NCBI GenBank assembly: GCA_002781125.1
Contig: PETJ01000032.1
Span: forward strand, 1-18,251
Direction of reading: 5' to 3'
Source of the DNA: Candidatus Nealsonbacteria bacterium CG01_land_8_20_14_3_00_12
GTDB taxonomy: Bacteria; Patescibacteriota; Minisyncoccia; Minisyncoccales; PETJ01
Length of the DNA stretch: 18,251 nucleotides
This document shows, piece after piece, positions 925 through 7,153 of this stretch. The notes under the pieces were generated by a model that was given only the letters and a program-made list of their open reading frames with translations, did not search any database and was not told the DNA's origin. The position numbers and the translations under genes were made by a program. Positions within the stretch are counted from its first letter, which is position 1. Each line of letters begins with the position of its first letter.

Positions 925-2250
925 ATGACTGATTTAATGTCAAAAATCATATCTTTATGTAAAAGGCGAGGATTTATTTTTCAATCTTCGGAGATTTATG
1001 GCGGGTTTGGTTCTTGTTATGATTTCGGGCCCCTGGGGGTGGAAATGAAAAATAATATTAAGAAAGCCTGGTGGGACGAAATGACAAAAAACCAGAATCC
1101 GCCAGCTGGCGGAATTGTTGGCTTGGATGCAGCAATTTTAATGAGCCCAAAAGTCTGGGAAGCATCTGGTCACTTAACGGCTGGTTTTGCCGATGAGTTG
1201 GTGGAGTGCAAAGAGTGTCATAAAAGGTTTCGATTAGATGAGTTAAAGATGAAAAAATGTCCAGAATGCGGTGGTCAACTCACTGAACCAAGAAAATTTA
1301 ATTTAATGATGAAAACACATATCGGGCCGGTGGAAGATGACGCAGCATTTACTTATTTAAGGGCGGAAACTTGTCAGGGGATTTATGTTAATTTTGAGAA
1401 TATTTTGAATACAATGAGATTAAAAATTCCCTTCGGGGTAGCTCAGATTGGAAAGGCGTTTCGAAATGAAATTACTCCAGGCGATTTTATTTATAGAACT
1501 CGCGAATTTGAACAAATGGAAATGCAGTGGTTCTGTCACCCGAAAGATGCTGAAAAATATTTTGATTACTGGCAAAAAGAAAGATTAAATTGGTATATAA
1601 ATTTAGGAATTAAAAAAGAAAACTTAAGAATTAAAGAAGTTCCGGTAAAAGAAAGGCCTCATTATGCTAAACAAGCTCTTGATTTAGAATATAAATTCCC
1701 TTTTGGCTGGAAAGAAATTGAAGGAATTCATAATCGGGGAGATTGGGATTTATCTAATCATTCCAAGTATTCTGGTAAAGATCTCAAATACGAAGGTTAC
1801 TATCCTTATATTATCGAAACTTCTGGTGGAGCTGATAGATCCTTTTTGGCTTTTTTATGTGATGCCTATCAAGAGATTCTGGGCGGAAGAACAAAAACAA
1901 CGAAAGCAGTAAAAGAAATTGAAATTTTATTAAAATTAGATAAAAAAATCGCTCCAATTAAAATAGCCATTTTGCCTTTAGTTAGAAACAAACCGGAATT
2001 GGTCAAAAAAGCCAAAGAAGTTTATCAATTACTAAAACCTCATTTTACCTGTCAATACGACGAATTAGGTTCAATCGGCAGAAGGTATCGGAGAGTTGAC
2101 GAAATAGGATGCCCCTGGGCAATTACGATTGATTTCGAGACCTTAAAAGACGATACTGTTACCTTGCGCTACCGCGACACAATGAAACAAGAAAGAGTGA
2201 AAATTAAAGAGCTTATTAAAATTATAAAAGAAAAATTAAATACTCAATGA
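925..2250 (+). CDS. glyQS: Glycine--tRNA ligase, single-chain (alpha2, class II) type
   Basis: Charges tRNA-Gly with glycine in the cytoplasm. The 441-residue protein opens with 'SLCKRRGFIFQSSEIYGG', typical of the archaeal/eukaryotic/Firmicutes single-chain GlyRS rather than the GlyQ+GlyS tetramer. A zinc-ribbon-like insert carries Cys95, Cys98, Cys112 and Cys115. Class II motif 2 is 'FRNEITP' at about 179-185 and motif 3 is 'GGADRSFLAF' at about 301-310. The anticodon-binding domain fills about 343-441, with 'GSIGRRYRRVDEIGCPWAI'. I chose ATG 925 over TTG 895 because 895 would overlap the upstream gene and add ten residues foreign to the family. No Shine-Dalgarno is evident. The protein contains an 'NPPAGG' segment encoded by a perfect 16-nt palindrome (1098-1113) just before the conserved 'VGLDAAIL'. 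The stop codon lies inside a tandem hairpin repeat. Confidence 0.95.
   Translation: MTDLMSKIISLCKRRGFIFQSSEIYGGFGSCYDFGPLGVEMKNNIKKAWWDEMTKNQNPPAGGIVGLDAAILMSPKVWEASGHLTAGFADELVECKECHKRFRLDELKMKKCPECGGQLTEPRKFNLMMKTHIGPVEDDAAFTYLRAETCQGIYVNFENILNTMRLKIPFGVAQIGKAFRNEITPGDFIYRTREFEQMEMQWFCHPKDAEKYFDYWQKERLNWYINLGIKKENLRIKEVPVKERPHYAKQALDLEYKFPFGWKEIEGIHNRGDWDLSNHSKYSGKDLKYEGYYPYIIETSGGADRSFLAFLCDAYQEILGGRTKTTKAVKEIEILLKLDKKIAPIKIAILPLVRNKPELVKKAKEVYQLLKPHFTCQYDELGSIGRRYRRVDEIGCPWAITIDFETLKDDTVTLRYRDTMKQERVKIKELIKIIKEKLNTQ
1098..1113. repeat. Perfect 16-nt palindrome inside glyQS
   Basis: TCCGCCAGCTGGCGGA is self-complementary over all 16 bases and much more GC-rich than its surroundings. It encodes part of 'NPPAGG', a loop segment before the conserved 'VGLDAAIL' of GlyRS that looks slightly longer than usual. 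GAAT occurs on both sides (1095-1098 and 1112-1115), but the spacing of 17 nt is not a multiple of three, so a clean insertion is not proven. The CCAGCTGG core recurs in the palindrome at 2746-2759. Confidence 0.7.
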
Positions 2251-2299
2251 ATCTTCGATTCATTTCGATCTTCAATTTATTTTCAATAAATTTCGATGT
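2244..2299. repeat. Tandem 28-nt hairpin repeat with compensated stems, glyQS/M16 junction
   Basis: Two 28-nt units, 2244-2271 and 2272-2299, match at 21 of 28 positions. Each unit folds into an 8-bp perfect stem with a TTC loop: 2246-2253 with 2257-2264, and 2274-2281 with 2285-2292. Six of the seven differences are three paired changes within the stem (G-C to T-A, A-T to T-A, C-G to T-A), so pairing is fully kept; the seventh (2270/2298) is outside the stem. The glyQS stop TGA (2248-2250) lies in the first stem and the M16 peptidase ATG (2296-2298) lies at the end of the second unit. Confidence 0.85.
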
Positions 2300-3561
2300 T
2301 TAAAAAGACTACTCTTGAAAATGGCTTGAGGATTATAACTGTTCCTCAAAAAGAAACTCAGTCCTTAACAGTTTTAGTATTAGTTGGAACTGGCTCAAAA
2401 TATGAAACAAAAGAAATAAATGGCATTTCCCATTTTTTAGAACACATGTTTTTTAAAGGAACAAAAAAGAGAAAAAGTATGATGGCTGTTGCCGACTCCC
2501 TGGATAAAATTGGCGGAATTTATAACGCCTTTACTTCGGAAGAATACACTGGGTACTTTGCTAAAGTCGCCGCTCCTCATCTGGAACTCGCCCTAGATTG
2601 GGTTTCCGACATCTATTTAAATAGCGCCTTACCAGAAAAAGAAATTGAAAAAGAAAGAGGGGTAATAATTGAAGAAATTAACATGATTTATGACCACCCC
2701 ACAAGCTACATTGGTAGCTTGTGGAATAAATTATTATACGGAAATCAACCAGCTGGTTGGGATGTCATTGGAACAAAGGAAAGTGTAGCTAAAATCAGCC
2801 GTCAGCAAATTTTAAACTATCTCAAATCTCAATATACAGCCCAAAATACTATAATTTGTATAGCCGGGAAAATAAATCCAGCCCAAGTAATAAATAAAAT
2901 CAAAAAATATTTCTCTAAGATTAAAACGACCCAACCTGAATCAAAACTTCCGGTCATTGAAAAACAAAGTCAGCCCCAGTGTTTAGTCCATTTTAGGAAG
3001 ACCGACCAAACTCATTTGGCTTTAGGGGTGAGGGCCTATAATATTTTTCACCCCCAAAGGTATACCCAGGAAATTCTTGGAATAATTTTGGGAGGAATGA
3101 TGAGTTCCAGGTTATTTATTGAAATAAGGGGGAGATTGGGAATAGCCTACTACATAAAAACTGAGGTTTTGACCGATTCCGATACTGGCTGCCTATCAAC
3201 TTCAGCTGGGATTGATAATAAAAATGTTGAGAAAGCAATTTCAGCTATTTTAAAAGAATATAAAAAGCTTTGCCAAAAAAAAGTCCTTGAAAGCGAACTC
3301 AAAAAAGCCAAGGATAATATAAAAGGAAAAACAGCCCTTCTCTTGGAGTCTTCCGATGTCCTATCTTTTTTTTATGCCGGTCAGGAACTTTTAGAAAAGA
3401 AAATTTTAACTCCAGAGGAAATTTTTAAAAAAATTGACCGGGTTTCTCTAAATGATATTCTAAAAGTAGCTAAAGATATTTTCCAACCTCAAAAATTAAA
3501 TTTAGCCCTGATTGGCCCCTTTAAAGATAAGGCAAAGTTTCAAAAACTATTAAAACCATAA
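2296..3561 (+). CDS. M16 family zinc metallopeptidase (mitochondrial processing peptidase/YmxG-like)
   Basis: A predicted zinc endopeptidase of the insulinase/pitrilysin clan; bacterial members are thought to degrade peptides or process secreted proteins, and the substrate here is unknown. The inverted zinc motif 'HFLEH' gives His46, Glu49 and His50; the third ligand should be Glu126 or Glu127 in 'ERGVIIEEI', about 76 residues later as the family expects. The C-terminal half has the second M16 domain with 'SSRLFIEIRGRLGIAYYI' at about 270-287. At 421 residues it matches the single-chain two-domain bacterial members. No signal peptide is apparent. The start at 2296 lies at the end of the 28-nt hairpin repeat, with no Shine-Dalgarno. 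Its stop overlaps the next start by one base (TAATG), implying translational coupling to the permease. The active-site set looks intact. Confidence 0.93.
   Translation: MFKKTTLENGLRIITVPQKETQSLTVLVLVGTGSKYETKEINGISHFLEHMFFKGTKKRKSMMAVADSLDKIGGIYNAFTSEEYTGYFAKVAAPHLELALDWVSDIYLNSALPEKEIEKERGVIIEEINMIYDHPTSYIGSLWNKLLYGNQPAGWDVIGTKESVAKISRQQILNYLKSQYTAQNTIICIAGKINPAQVINKIKKYFSKIKTTQPESKLPVIEKQSQPQCLVHFRKTDQTHLALGVRAYNIFHPQRYTQEILGIILGGMMSSRLFIEIRGRLGIAYYIKTEVLTDSDTGCLSTSAGIDNKNVEKAISAILKEYKKLCQKKVLESELKKAKDNIKGKTALLLESSDVLSFFYAGQELLEKKILTPEEIFKKIDRVSLNDILKVAKDIFQPQKLNLALIGPFKDKAKFQKLLKP
2699..2759. repeat. Hairpin and palindrome inside the M16 peptidase gene
   Basis: A perfect 11-bp stem (2699-2709 with 2714-2724, loop ATTG) encodes 'PTSYIGSLW'. 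Twenty-one bases after it, CAACCAGCTGGTTG (2746-2759) is a perfect 14-nt palindrome sharing the CCAGCTGG core with the glyQS palindrome. Protein length here matches the usual M16 spacing, so there is no sign of an insertion; the structure may be chance or a replacement of existing sequence. Confidence 0.5.
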
Positions 3562-4703: not shown

Positions 4704-6209
4704 ATGGCAAAGAAAAATAAAAAGTTTTATCTTTCAACTGCACTTCCCTATGTGAACGAATTTCCCCATGCAGGTTGGGCTTTAGAAATTATTCAAGCTG
4801 ATGTTATTGCGAGATATCATCGGCTTTTAGCTGAGGATGTTTTCTTTTTGACCGGAACGGATGAAAATTCCCTAAAAAATGTGAGAGCAGCTGAGGAAGA
4901 AGGCATGAGCGTAAAAAAGCTAGTAGATAGAAATGCAAAGAAGTTCCATGAACTAAAAGATATCTTAAATTTATCTTTCAATGATTTCATCAGAACTACT
5001 GAAGAGCGACATATTAAAGGAGCTCAAAAATTATGGAAAGCCTGCCAAAAAGATATTTATAAAAAGTCCTATCGAGGACTTTATTGCGTGGGGTGTGAAG
5101 AATTTTATAAAGAAAATGAGTTAGAAAACGGTCTTTGCCCAGAACATAAAACGAGACCCGATTTAGTAGAAGAAGAAAATTATTTTTTCCGACTTTCCAA
5201 ATATCAAGACAAATTAAAAACAATTATTGAAAGTGATGAAGCCAAAATAATTCCTCAGGTTCGAAAGAACGAAATCATAAGTTTTATAAATTCCGGTCTC
5301 GAGGATATTTGTATTTCGCGGTTATCTGAACGCGGCCGAGGATGGGGAATCCCAGTACCCGGGGATCCAAGCCAAATTTTATGGACCTGGTTTGACGCTC
5401 TTTCTAACTATGTCAATGCCCTGGGTTACGGAGAGAATAGCAAAAAATTTCAAGAATGGTGGCAAAAAAATGAAAATAAATTACATATTGTGGGCAAGGG
5501 AATTTTAAGATTTCATGGGATATATTGGATAGCATTCCTTCTTTCAGCTAAATTGGCCTTACCAAAGATAATTTTTGTCCACGGTTATTTAACTTCCGCT
5601 GGACAGAAAATGTCAAAATCTTTAGGAAACGTGATTGATCCTTTCGAGCTAGTGAAAAAATACGGTTGCGACCCCGTGAGATATTTTCTTTTGCGGGAGA
5701 TTCCCCCAACTGAGGATGGAGACTTCACTTATCAAAAATTTGAGGAACGCTATAACGCTGACCTGGCAAGCGGGTTAGGAAATTTAGTGGCGAGGGTGGT
5801 TACATTAGCTGCGGAACTCAAAACTCAAAAGTCAAATCTCAAAAACCGAGCTTCCAAAGGAAGCGAAGGTGAAGATGAAAACGAAGTTTTCATCGCCCCT
5901 GAAACTCAAAACTTAAAACTAAAAGAAGAAATTAAAAAAACTCAACAAAAATATAAAAAGGCTTTAGCAGAATTTAAGTTTAATGAGGCGCTAATTTCAA
6001 CTTGGGATTTGATTAGTTTTTGCGACAAATACATAGAAAGAGAGCGACCTTGGGAGAAGTCAGAAAAACAATTATCAATTATCAATAATTTATTATTTGC
6101 TTTGGATAACATTGCCCAACTTCTTCAGCCGTTTTTACCCGAAACTTCAGAAAAAATCAAAAAACAATTAAAAACCAAAAAGAGTCAGCCATTATTTCCG
6201 AGGATTTAA
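4704..6209 (+). CDS. metG: Methionine--tRNA ligase
   Basis: Charges tRNA-Met in the cytoplasm; class I synthetase of 501 residues. The nucleotide-binding motif reads 'HAGW' at 22-25 in 'EFPHAGWALEIIQADVIARYHR', where HIGH is canonical, so the last His is replaced by Trp. A connective-domain zinc site has Cys128, Cys131, Cys145 and His148. 'KMSKS' is at 302-306, intact. There is no C-terminal EMAP-II/Trbp-like tRNA-binding domain. The anticodon-binding helical domain (about 355-501) contains an unusual hydrophilic insert at about 371-406, encoded by a double-hairpin repeat and flanking 'ctcaaaa'-type direct repeats. ATG 4704 follows the AAAGGAG inverted repeat; tatD starts three bases after the stop. 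The metG-tatD pairing is common in bacteria. Confidence 0.96.
   Translation: MAKKNKKFYLSTALPYVNEFPHAGWALEIIQADVIARYHRLLAEDVFFLTGTDENSLKNVRAAEEEGMSVKKLVDRNAKKFHELKDILNLSFNDFIRTTEERHIKGAQKLWKACQKDIYKKSYRGLYCVGCEEFYKENELENGLCPEHKTRPDLVEEENYFFRLSKYQDKLKTIIESDEAKIIPQVRKNEIISFINSGLEDICISRLSERGRGWGIPVPGDPSQILWTWFDALSNYVNALGYGENSKKFQEWWQKNENKLHIVGKGILRFHGIYWIAFLLSAKLALPKIIFVHGYLTSAGQKMSKSLGNVIDPFELVKKYGCDPVRYFLLREIPPTEDGDFTYQKFEERYNADLASGLGNLVARVVTLAAELKTQKSNLKNRASKGSEGEDENEVFIAPETQNLKLKEEIKKTQQKYKKALAEFKFNEALISTWDLISFCDKYIERERPWEKSEKQLSIINNLLFALDNIAQLLQPFLPETSEKIKKQLKTKKSQPLFPRI
5847..5900. repeat. Double-hairpin repeat, copy A, in-frame inside metG
   Basis: Hairpin 1 is GCTTCC-AAA-GGAAGC (5850-5864). 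Hairpin 2 is a 9-bp stem, 5874-5882 with 5886-5894, loop GAA. The bases outside the variable stem and loop (CCGAGCTTCC, GGAAGCGAAGG, GAAGATGA, TCATCGCC) are shared with copy B at 7097-7153, and the second half resembles copy C in tatD. It encodes 'RASKGSEGEDENEVFIAP' within a loop of the anticodon domain. Flanks carry repeated 'actcaaaa' words (5816-5840 and 5902-5922). I see no clear target-site duplication. Confidence 0.85.
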
Positions 6210-6212
6210 TTT

Positions 6213-7112
6213 ATGCTAATTGATACCCATGCTCATTTAAATTTCAACGCTTACAAAGCAGATGCCGACGAAGTAATTCGTCGGTCTCTCGAGCAACGGC
6301 GAAGGGGGAAGAAGAAAATTTATTTTCTTCGCCCTCTGGATAATCAGGTCTGGATGATAAATGTTGGCACGAACTATGAGACAAGCAAAAGGGCAGTTGA
6401 AATTGCCCGAGGACATGAAAAAGGAGTTTATGCAGTAGTTGGGCTTCATCCAATTCATCTAGAAACAGGCCTAGTAAAAATTAAAAATGACGTAGAGGAA
6501 ATTGAAGTAAAAGCAAGAGAGGAGGAATTCGATTATGAAAAATACAAAGGATTGGCAAAATCTGAAAAAGTGGTAGCAATTGGTGAAATTGGTTTGGATT
6601 ATTATTATAAACCAAAAACAAAAAGAAAACTGGAATTATTTAAGGAAAAACAGAGAACTGTTCTCGGTCAGCAATTGAATTTGGCTAAAGAATCAAATTT
6701 GCCAGTGATTTTTCATTGCCGAATGGCTCACCAAGATTTAATTGATTTTTTAAAAGAAAATCCAGAAATTAGACCAGAAAAAGCGGTAGCTCATGGATTT
6801 GTGGGAAATTTAGAAGAACTTCAAAAATATTTGGATTTTGGATATTATATTGGAATTAATGGAATAATTTTTAAAAACATTGAAGGAATTGATTTCGGAG
6901 AAAACATTAAAAGAACGCCTCTAGATAAAATTTTAATTGAGACCGACTGTCCATATTTAACTCCGCCGCCGATGGAAGGTAGAAATGAACCTTTGTATGT
7001 TAAATACATCGCTGAAAAAATCGCCAGAATTAAAAATATAAGTTTCGATGAAGTGGCTGAAATCACAACGAAAAATGCCAAAAAATTATTTAAAATCCGA
7101 GCTTCCATTTAA
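6213..7112 (+). CDS. tatD: TatD family metal-dependent hydrolase/DNase
   Basis: Metal-dependent TIM-barrel hydrolase of the TatD family; members show 3'-5' exonuclease activity on DNA or RNA. Metal and catalytic residues are all visible: His6 and His8 ('DTHAHLNF'), Glu125 ('GEIGLDYYY'), His168 ('FHCRMAH'), His194 ('AHGFVG') and Asp245 ('ETDCPYLTPPP'). At 299 residues it is longer than the usual 255-265. Part of the excess is a 16-residue basic insert near residues 26-41 encoded by repeat copy C, and part a charged stretch after 'HPIHLETG'. The last four residues 'RASI' and the stop come from repeat copy B. The start is three bases after the metG stop, with GAGG about nine bases upstream. Confidence 0.95.
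   Translation: MLIDTHAHLNFNAYKADADEVIRRSLEQRRRGKKKIYFLRPLDNQVWMINVGTNYETSKRAVEIARGHEKGVYAVVGLHPIHLETGLVKIKNDVEEIEVKAREEEFDYEKYKGLAKSEKVVAIGEIGLDYYYKPKTKRKLELFKEKQRTVLGQQLNLAKESNLPVIFHCRMAHQDLIDFLKENPEIRPEKAVAHGFVGNLEELQKYLDFGYYIGINGIIFKNIEGIDFGENIKRTPLDKILIETDCPYLTPPPMEGRNEPLYVKYIAEKIARIKNISFDEVAEITTKNAKKLFKIRASI
6286..6337. repeat. Palindromic insertion, copy C, in tatD with CTCT direct repeats
   Basis: CTCT at 6286-6289 and 6334-6337 flanks a 44-nt element (6290-6333) that begins CGAGC and ends TCGCC, as copies A and B do. The core is a 9-bp stem GAAGAAAAT/ATTTTCTTC (6311-6319 with 6322-6330). The period is 48 nt, 16 codons. Removing one period leaves 'RRSLDNQVWMINVGT', which fits the ordinary TatD sequence with no gap. 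Compared with A and B, the first hairpin is missing (CGAGC-AACG-GCGAAGG). Confidence 0.8.
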
Positions 7113-7153
7113 GGAAGCGAAGGAGAAGATGAGGACAAAATCCTCATCGCCTT
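7097..7153. repeat. Double-hairpin repeat, copy B, bridging tatD stop and mtnP start
   Basis: Hairpin 1 is GCTTCC (7101-7106) with GGAAGC (7113-7118). Hairpin 2 is an 8-bp stem, 7128-7135 with 7141-7148, loop CAAAA, plus an outer GAAGG/CCTTC pairing. It aligns with copy A over nearly its whole length; the hairpin 2 stem differs in sequence (GATGAGGA versus GATGAAAAC) yet stays paired. The loop of hairpin 1 contains the tatD stop TAA (7110-7112). Hairpin 2 contains the mtnP ATG (7129-7131), with AGGAG just upstream. Confidence 0.85.

Follow-up and report, generated by a model that had tools for sequence, protein, structure and literature searches.

Short double-hairpin elements, very probably mobile, in conserved genes of one Patescibacteria order

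The stretch of DNA analysed here (the window) comprises 18,251 nt, positions 1 to 18,251 of contig PETJ01000032.1 of Candidatus Nealsonbacteria bacterium CG01_land_8_20_14_3_00_12 (assembly GCA_002781125.1), and its neighbouring genes metG, tatD and mtnP carry, on the plus strand, three copies of a short sequence that folds into two hairpins. Copy A (54 nt, 5845..5898) lies in frame inside metG, in the linker between the catalytic and anticodon domains, and encodes NRASKGSEGEDENEVFIA; copy C (6287..6334), of a 48-nt short subtype, lies in frame inside tatD; and copy B (57 nt, 7096..7152) occupies the junction between the tatD stop and the mtnP start. These three had been recognised as one repeat family in the first-pass annotation, and the boundaries refined here against orthologs lie no more than three bases from those proposed earlier. 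That list had missed a fourth copy, at 2242..2297 on the minus strand, which belongs to an AT-rich subtype with an ATC/GAT helix, has the same architecture as A, B and C, and overlaps two gene ends, namely the 3' end of one coding for a class-II aminoacyl-tRNA synthetase (895-2250, which we take to be GlyRS-like) and the start of one coding for an M16 peptidase (from 2296). Further copies of the AT-rich subtype occur in the sequences L017, L022 and L068, with partial matches in L069, L251 and L026. The hexamers preceding the insertions, read from the sequence, are TCA-AAA for copy A (5839..5844, plus), TCG-GTC for copy C (6281..6286, plus) and TTA-AAA for copy B (7090..7095, plus), and that of the fourth copy is TTA-AAC (2298..2303, minus).

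A covariance model, designated R1, was derived from 41 elements found in several genomes, with copies A and B included and copy C and the fourth copy left out. In an unfiltered search of the window, copies A and B scored 73.7 and 73.1 bits, respectively, and the two copies outside the model were recovered with 31.3 bits (copy C, E 5e-8) and 27.8 bits (fourth copy, 2243-2297 minus, E 5.5e-7). No match at gathering score was obtained with Rfam in the window.

The insertions in the window are exact in length. Removal in silico of 54 nt (copy A) from metG leaves KSNLKTETQNLK, removal of 48 nt (copy C) from tatD leaves RRSLDNQVWMINVG, and removal of 57 nt (copy B) brings back the tatD stop (KKLFKI*); since the frame or stop of the host gene is restored in each case, no target duplication needs to be assumed. 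In comparison with orthologs, MetG is 18 residues longer than those of L212 and L224 (the linker is variable in the other 12 aligned), its Pfam matches stopping at amino acid (aa) 365 and resuming at aa 408, and TatD is 16 residues longer than all 14 of the orthologs aligned. Genome G180 also has copies in the same MetG linker and the same TatD C-terminus (L095 521-576 and 2789-2843); as its sites differ slightly in base position from those of the window, the copies in the two genomes are apparently independent insertions.

The family is larger than the three copies first noted. The covariance-model search of the organism's own genome and its relatives, called for in the first-pass annotation, yielded further copies in abundance: at least 73 R1 matches in the own genome (440,920 bases, 79.7% complete), at least 155 and 164 in the order relatives G018 and G180, respectively, and two in G528. 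In these whole-genome counts 150 candidates were scored per genome (150 of 352 in the own genome), and part of the matches are a weaker opposite-strand reading of one palindrome. With copy A as a DNA query, 20 places (itself included) were found in the own genome, and with copy B 15; identical 53-nt bodies occur four times, on four of its contigs. In a survey of the order, performed with stricter filters and about 23 candidates scored per genome, R1 matched 29 of 247 genomes (own genome included), as against seven of 286 in a phylum-wide draw, from which we conclude that the family has its centre in a single Patescibacteria order, within which it is patchy. The seven include G000 and G018; among the remaining five, G331 alone matched strongly (E 1.4e-9), the others with E 2e-4 to 7e-4.

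A pattern scan of contigs returned 35 stretches, 30 of them in records titled Parcubacteria, Nealsonbacteria or Patescibacteria or in the metagenome-assembled genome JAUSLA01, one in a Nanoarchaeota contig, and four, from Iodobacter, Desulfuromonadales and two Actinobacteria records, that were taken as chance matches and have neither the ACCGAG box nor stem 1. The element in the Nanoarchaeota-binned contig JAUYGA010000190.1 (L093 41-96) is a true one by its score and stands at the very contig end; because both matches of this 1.7-Mb genome overlap at the end of that one contig, misbinning or a chimera is likely. Phage or plasmid carriers did not appear in a distant blastn search with copy A, and a strict pattern search of viral sequences gave no stretch. 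A looser viral pattern gave 27, the best R1 scores being 31.3 and 28.7 bits (E 6e-7 and 4e-6 after pattern selection); with a long insert or an imperfect second stem, these are probably chance.

Read on the top strand, the element has the anatomy ACC-GA-stem1-GA-A-GGT-N(G/A)A-stem2-G(C/A)C-Y, with two hairpins, the first of which is closed by a 3-bp ACC/GGT helix, and with the same tandem GA motif at both feet. Its length is usually 54-58 nt (131 of 173 copies) and that of the short subtype 48; the 173 copies, used here and for the target and end statistics below, are those of the 237 distinct matches that start with the canonical motif. With the structure named from the sequences, pairing is kept in 97.2% of 786 cells, both sides have changed in 14 of 20 pairs, and covariation reaches 0.389 versus 0.157 after shuffling, a value attained in none of 500 shuffles (relatedness uncorrected); when the partners are slid by 1-3 columns, pairing falls to 36-49%. 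Further pair types were within the shuffle range (26 observed, reached by 81 of 500 shuffles). Stem changes also keep pairing in a second profile, of pairs and flanks, made on the top 100 of 150 aligned matches (94 distinct for pairs, 99 for flanks). The central (second) stem had previously been said to differ in sequence and yet remain paired, and on the covariance alignment its changes do keep pairing, occurring on both sides; covariation extends past it to stem 1 and to the 3-bp ACC/GGT helix. Neither of the two checks proposed in the first-pass annotation, on further copies and on stem pairing, thus speaks against the family.

The helix and the feet were examined in 90 copies parsed by a strict rule, under which only certain foot letters were allowed and a helix of the ACC/GGT type was required to pair. 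The closing helix is ACC/GGT in 74 and ATC/GAT in seven of them, and TCC/GGA, a double change, in copy B. Foot 1 is G-A in 75, A-C in seven, A-A in seven and C-C in one; foot 2 is A-C in 58, G-A in 22, A-A in seven, A-G in two and A-T in one. At the feet, a change of the outer G to A tends to go with a change of the opposite A to C, and this linked G.A/A.C exchange is supported with p 8e-8 and, in a second test leaving out three copies of other types, 7e-15 (relatedness uncorrected in both). Among stem mismatches in the 173 copies, G.T outnumbers A.C (66 versus 35, p 0.003), and hence the top strand as written, be it RNA or single-stranded DNA, seems to be the constrained one. The predicted folds of copies A and B beat all 200 shuffles, both as DNA (z -4.9 each) and as RNA (z -4.7 and -6.0); for some copies (L009, L090) the fold program favours GGT paired with the 3' end instead.

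Insertion follows the rule TYR-NNN^element (Y = C or T, R = A or G), that is, it occurs 3 nt 3' of TYR. In the 173 copies, position -6 is T in 159, -5 is C or T in 167 and -4 is A or G in 154; TYR stands in register in 138, compared with 0-22 at eight shifted positions, and these flanks lie outside the model. Copy C and the short subtype fit the rule if begun one base earlier, at a wobble-capable T (by eye). The right end of the element, TCGCCY, TCGACY or TTGACY, is itself TYRNNN, with TYR in 165 of 173 copies, a figure which is partly a matter of construction since that end belongs to the model; 143 copies end in T or C. The right end of an inserted copy thus provides a fresh target, and tandem copies would be explained in this way: 15 of the 173 are preceded directly by an element-like end, and tandem arrays with one base between model matches are found in L073 6390-6577 (four copies) and L105 (two). 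Nested copies were seen by eye in L088 (6348), L094 (6472) and L069 (2484), and also inside a hairpin of a RAYT transposase gene in L165. Two copies in L077 (2626-2780, by eye) lie in duplicated tRNA-like sequence just 5' of a tRNA-Ala gene, where they follow TCAATT and TCATTT. The idea that hairpin loops are the site of insertion, to which the nested and tRNA-like cases had pointed, was dropped, as insertion there is no commoner than in flank-swapped controls (0.33 of 115 versus 0.33 of 400), the 115 being the copies that have T at -6 and no element-like words in their flanks.

The distribution relative to genes was determined for 143 non-overlapping copies (150 of the 237 matches, less those of the duplicate contig L085 and overlapping readings). 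Inside open reading frames (ORFs) lie 41 (27 sense, 14 antisense), at ORF ends 40 and in intergenic sequence 62; with 88.5% of the sequence coding by a crude ORF call, intragenic copies are rarer than chance. The length plus one is divisible by three in 20 of 27 copies inside ORFs of at least 200 aa, versus 48 of 102 outside ORFs, an excess due in part to the way of counting, because an insert that disrupted the frame would cut its ORF short. Of the sense frames (by eye), one is usually closed by the TGA in GGTGA and the other two are open. Host genes were identified with Pfam in 16 scanned ORFs (10 + 6) and encode synthetases, namely MetRS (window and G180), another class I synthetase, LeuRS, a ThrRS-type enzyme and AlaRS, as well as UvrB, UvrC, DnaX, a Mur ligase, a DUF2229 protein, ribosomal protein S9 and TatD. 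The UvrB gene in L090 (2503-4632) bears three copies, two sense and one antisense, one of them near the called N-terminus. In the window, copy B contains AAGGAG (7120-7125) and ATG (7129-7131) on the plus strand, in frame with mtnP; judged from sequence only, the ribosome site and start of mtnP may now come from this copy. A second in-frame ATG for mtnP lies further upstream, at 7048, inside tatD.

Several known repeat systems resemble this family. Rickettsia palindromic elements are palindromic and dispersed, occur in frame within conserved protein-coding genes as well as in RNA genes, measure 105-146 bp (about 150) and have terminal inverted repeats (PMC2229807, PMC10969869). In-frame insertion in conserved protein genes is common to both families, whereas the Rickettsia elements are longer and belong to another phylum, and the Patescibacteria element is a tandem double hairpin of about 54 nt with no terminal inverted repeat seen and a TYRNNN target. 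CGTC-tagged repetitive extragenic palindromes (REPs), including RPE-4 and RPE-6, are short hairpins with no dedicated transposase found, and the R. conorii uvrB has two copies (PMC3733652). They share short hairpins and intragenic copies with the present family, in which UvrB has three copies rather than two; the Patescibacteria element is a direct double hairpin with GA feet and lacks the CGTC tag, CGTC being found near the 5' and 3' ends in two and three of 173 copies and its reverse complement GACG in none and four. Its behaviour is therefore that of Rickettsia palindromic elements and CGTC REPs, but it fails their defining length or tag.

GTAG REPs and REPINs mobilised with RAYT share the high copy number, the hairpin and an anatomy of the single-stranded DNA type; GTAG is found near the 5' and 3' ends in two and none of 173 copies (its reverse complement CTAC in 12 and 16), and most RAYT loci examined here have flank repeats of their own. 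Target duplication is not known from IS200/IS605 insertions, and none is needed to account for copies A, B and C. IS200/IS605 elements have subterminal hairpins, a target motif flanking the 5' end and an equivalent motif at the 3' end of the element (PMC6006769), and here too the motif 5' of the element is like its own 3' end. The Patescibacteria element differs in having no transposase gene and no established guide. For class 3 Y1 proteins, hairpins with a CnGA foot are reported (PMC6006769); the CCGA foot of the element resembles this and may be a lead. Likenesses to kink-turns, hammerheads and TIGR arrays were weighed and set aside. The double-hairpin elements of Allomyces mitochondria and the GC clusters of yeast have a hairpin body, inferred mobility and clusters that merge, the Allomyces elements being reported without flanking duplications (PMC2800124, PMC4478555). 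The likeness to fungal mitochondrial elements pointed out in the first-pass annotation, compared by description only, stands for the two hairpins and the missing flanking duplication; beyond this it is an analogy, as the family is bacterial and behaves more like Rickettsia palindromic elements and CGTC REPs. No earlier description of such an element in Patescibacteria, Parcubacteria, the candidate phyla radiation or Nealsonbacteria was found among the open-access titles listed, and a report elsewhere is possible. What is new here is the TYR-NNN target rule, the clean removal of 54, 48 and 57 nt, the GA feet with linked G.A/A.C exchange and the further hosts among essential genes.

We favour the reading that these copies form a family of mobile elements that are non-autonomous and depend on an enzyme acting in trans, perhaps a HUH-type nuclease for single strands, and assign to it as a whole a probability of roughly 0.6. 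That the element is mobile is very probable: the earlier wording, 'mobile or structurally selected element', is borne out by dispersed unrelated sites, exact-length, nested and tandem insertions, compensatory changes and a fixed target rule. Exact joining, the match between target and 3'-end motif, the hairpins and the constrained top strand point to single-strand transposition in trans, for which we consider the odds slightly short of even. A nuclease of the HUH type, like those of IS200/IS605 and REPs, would recognise the folded top strand and cut after TYRNNN at both ends of the element, the two cut sites being alike because the right end is also TYRNNN. Insertion, 3 nt past TYR, takes place in both orientations with respect to genes and without target duplication, and in-frame survival inside essential genes would follow from common lengths that are multiples of three and from two open sense frames out of three. 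More tentatively, and at odds we would not back, the family could represent a Patescibacteria-specific minimal transposable element, in which two GA-footed hairpins make up the whole 54-nt element, cleavage falls three bases 3' of TYR at either end and the length is tuned for translatable inserts supplying peptides or starts.

Several observations weigh against this account of movement. No transposase could be tied to the element in searches aimed at RAYT, other nucleases and reverse transcriptases not having been searched for, and G018, G068 and G179, three of the twelve genomes with at least eight matches in the order survey, are outside the RAYT homologue matches. Three free bases separate the motif from the cut, unlike in IS200/IS605, where the target tetranucleotide directly adjoins the element end (PMC6006769). 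A guide association is not apparent: with a GC foot at stem 2 the target has C in 98 and T in 40 copies, and with the AT foot C in 15 and T in seven. A scan of 185 position pairs in 103 copies with T at -6 gave as its best pair target -2 with the variable base of TCWTC (0 of 500 shuffles, uncorrected), a signal which may come from relatedness. At the nested sites in L088 and L069, a body lacking the final Y fits about equally well, so that the 3' end is certain only to 1 nt. Ribosomal protein S9 in G018 (L063) gains a net 18 residues (54 nt) from a 57-nt body, and clean insertion is thus unproven there. Inside ORFs of at least 200 aa, 18 copies are sense and nine antisense. Finally, the fold of copy C is weak, both as DNA (z -1.7, 17 of 200 shuffles as good) and as RNA (z -1.9, 8 of 200), because its first stem has only about 2 bp.

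The alternatives weighed here are not exclusive, and the likelihoods attached to them need not sum. The elements could be REPs mobilised by the RAYT (Y1) transposases resident in the order, where RAYT homologues occur in 133 of 247 genomes. They are found in 21 of 29 element-bearing versus 112 of 218 other genomes (p 0.046), PF01797 is above its cut-off in eight of twelve element-rich genomes, and in G175 two inverted copies bracket the RAYT gene (L165 1160-2114), at distances of 28 and 26 nt from its ORF. However, these copies sit, by eye, inside the different flanking hairpins of the RAYT gene itself, at TCACCG, and this nesting explains the single bracketed case among 20 Y1 places in element-rich genomes (sub-threshold ones included). 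R1 matches elsewhere in a Y1 locus were seen in L157, L169 and L177; at the other best RAYT homologue loci there were none in 29, a weak control as most lie in element-free genomes. A repeat common to both flanks is present at 35 of 39 other Y1 loci (one entered twice), and G018, with its many copies, has a sub-threshold Y1 match only. RAYT was dropped as the main mobiliser on account of the nested copies in G175, the one bracketed place in 20 and the empty 29 loci, and we regard mobilisation by it as quite unlikely; the mobilising enzyme may be lost, or may be a broad-range nuclease. RAYT-like genes are common in this order, and most of those examined (L182-L210) have a private repeat or hairpin on both sides.

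An RNA route, by which a transcribed double hairpin enters RNA or DNA by reverse splicing or by target-primed copying with a reverse transcriptase, would also place the constraint on the folded strand and need no target duplication; it has been proposed for the Allomyces elements (PMC2800124), and by eye the tRNA-like sequence that holds the two L077 copies is on the same strand as the neighbouring tRNA-Ala gene. We nevertheless consider it unlikely, given antisense insertions in nine of 27 long ORFs and hairpin-loop insertion that does not exceed the controls. The pairing itself might be kept not by selection on the fold but by template-switch correction of quasi-palindromes, as the near-perfect palindromic stems would suggest. 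Such correction would erase the asymmetric GA/GAA loop across which the ACC/GGT helix covaries, and neither the higher number of G.T than of A.C mismatches on the top strand nor the non-Watson-Crick G.A/A.C exchange agrees with it, which makes this origin improbable. Even less probable, and scarcely credible to us, are fixed structured RNA or DNA sites (terminators, attenuators or protein-binding sites) kept by function and now immobile: strong pairing constraint and the placement of 62 of 143 copies between genes and 40 at ORF ends would suit them, whereas a downstream T-run is absent, presence is patchy between families, copies are nested, and essential coding genes hold exact inserts that the aligned MetG and TatD orthologs lack, even if the corresponding MetG linker of G180 carries a copy.

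Mobile elements of the kind favoured here bear on the biology of the group in several ways. Patescibacteria genomes are highly reduced, yet three of them carry about one match per 5-6 kb, and despite the small genome copies sit in aminoacyl-tRNA synthetases, UvrB, UvrC, DnaX and ribosomal protein S9. The copies are relevant to gene annotation and to the binning of uncultured Patescibacteria genomes, and the target rule, the near-exact boundaries and the covariance model make the mechanism of movement directly testable. The family provides a natural test of how peptides can be added to essential proteins by mobile DNA, the question posed by Rickettsia palindromic elements; if the minimal-element version is true, inserts in essential genes would stay translatable and could supply new peptides or start sites.

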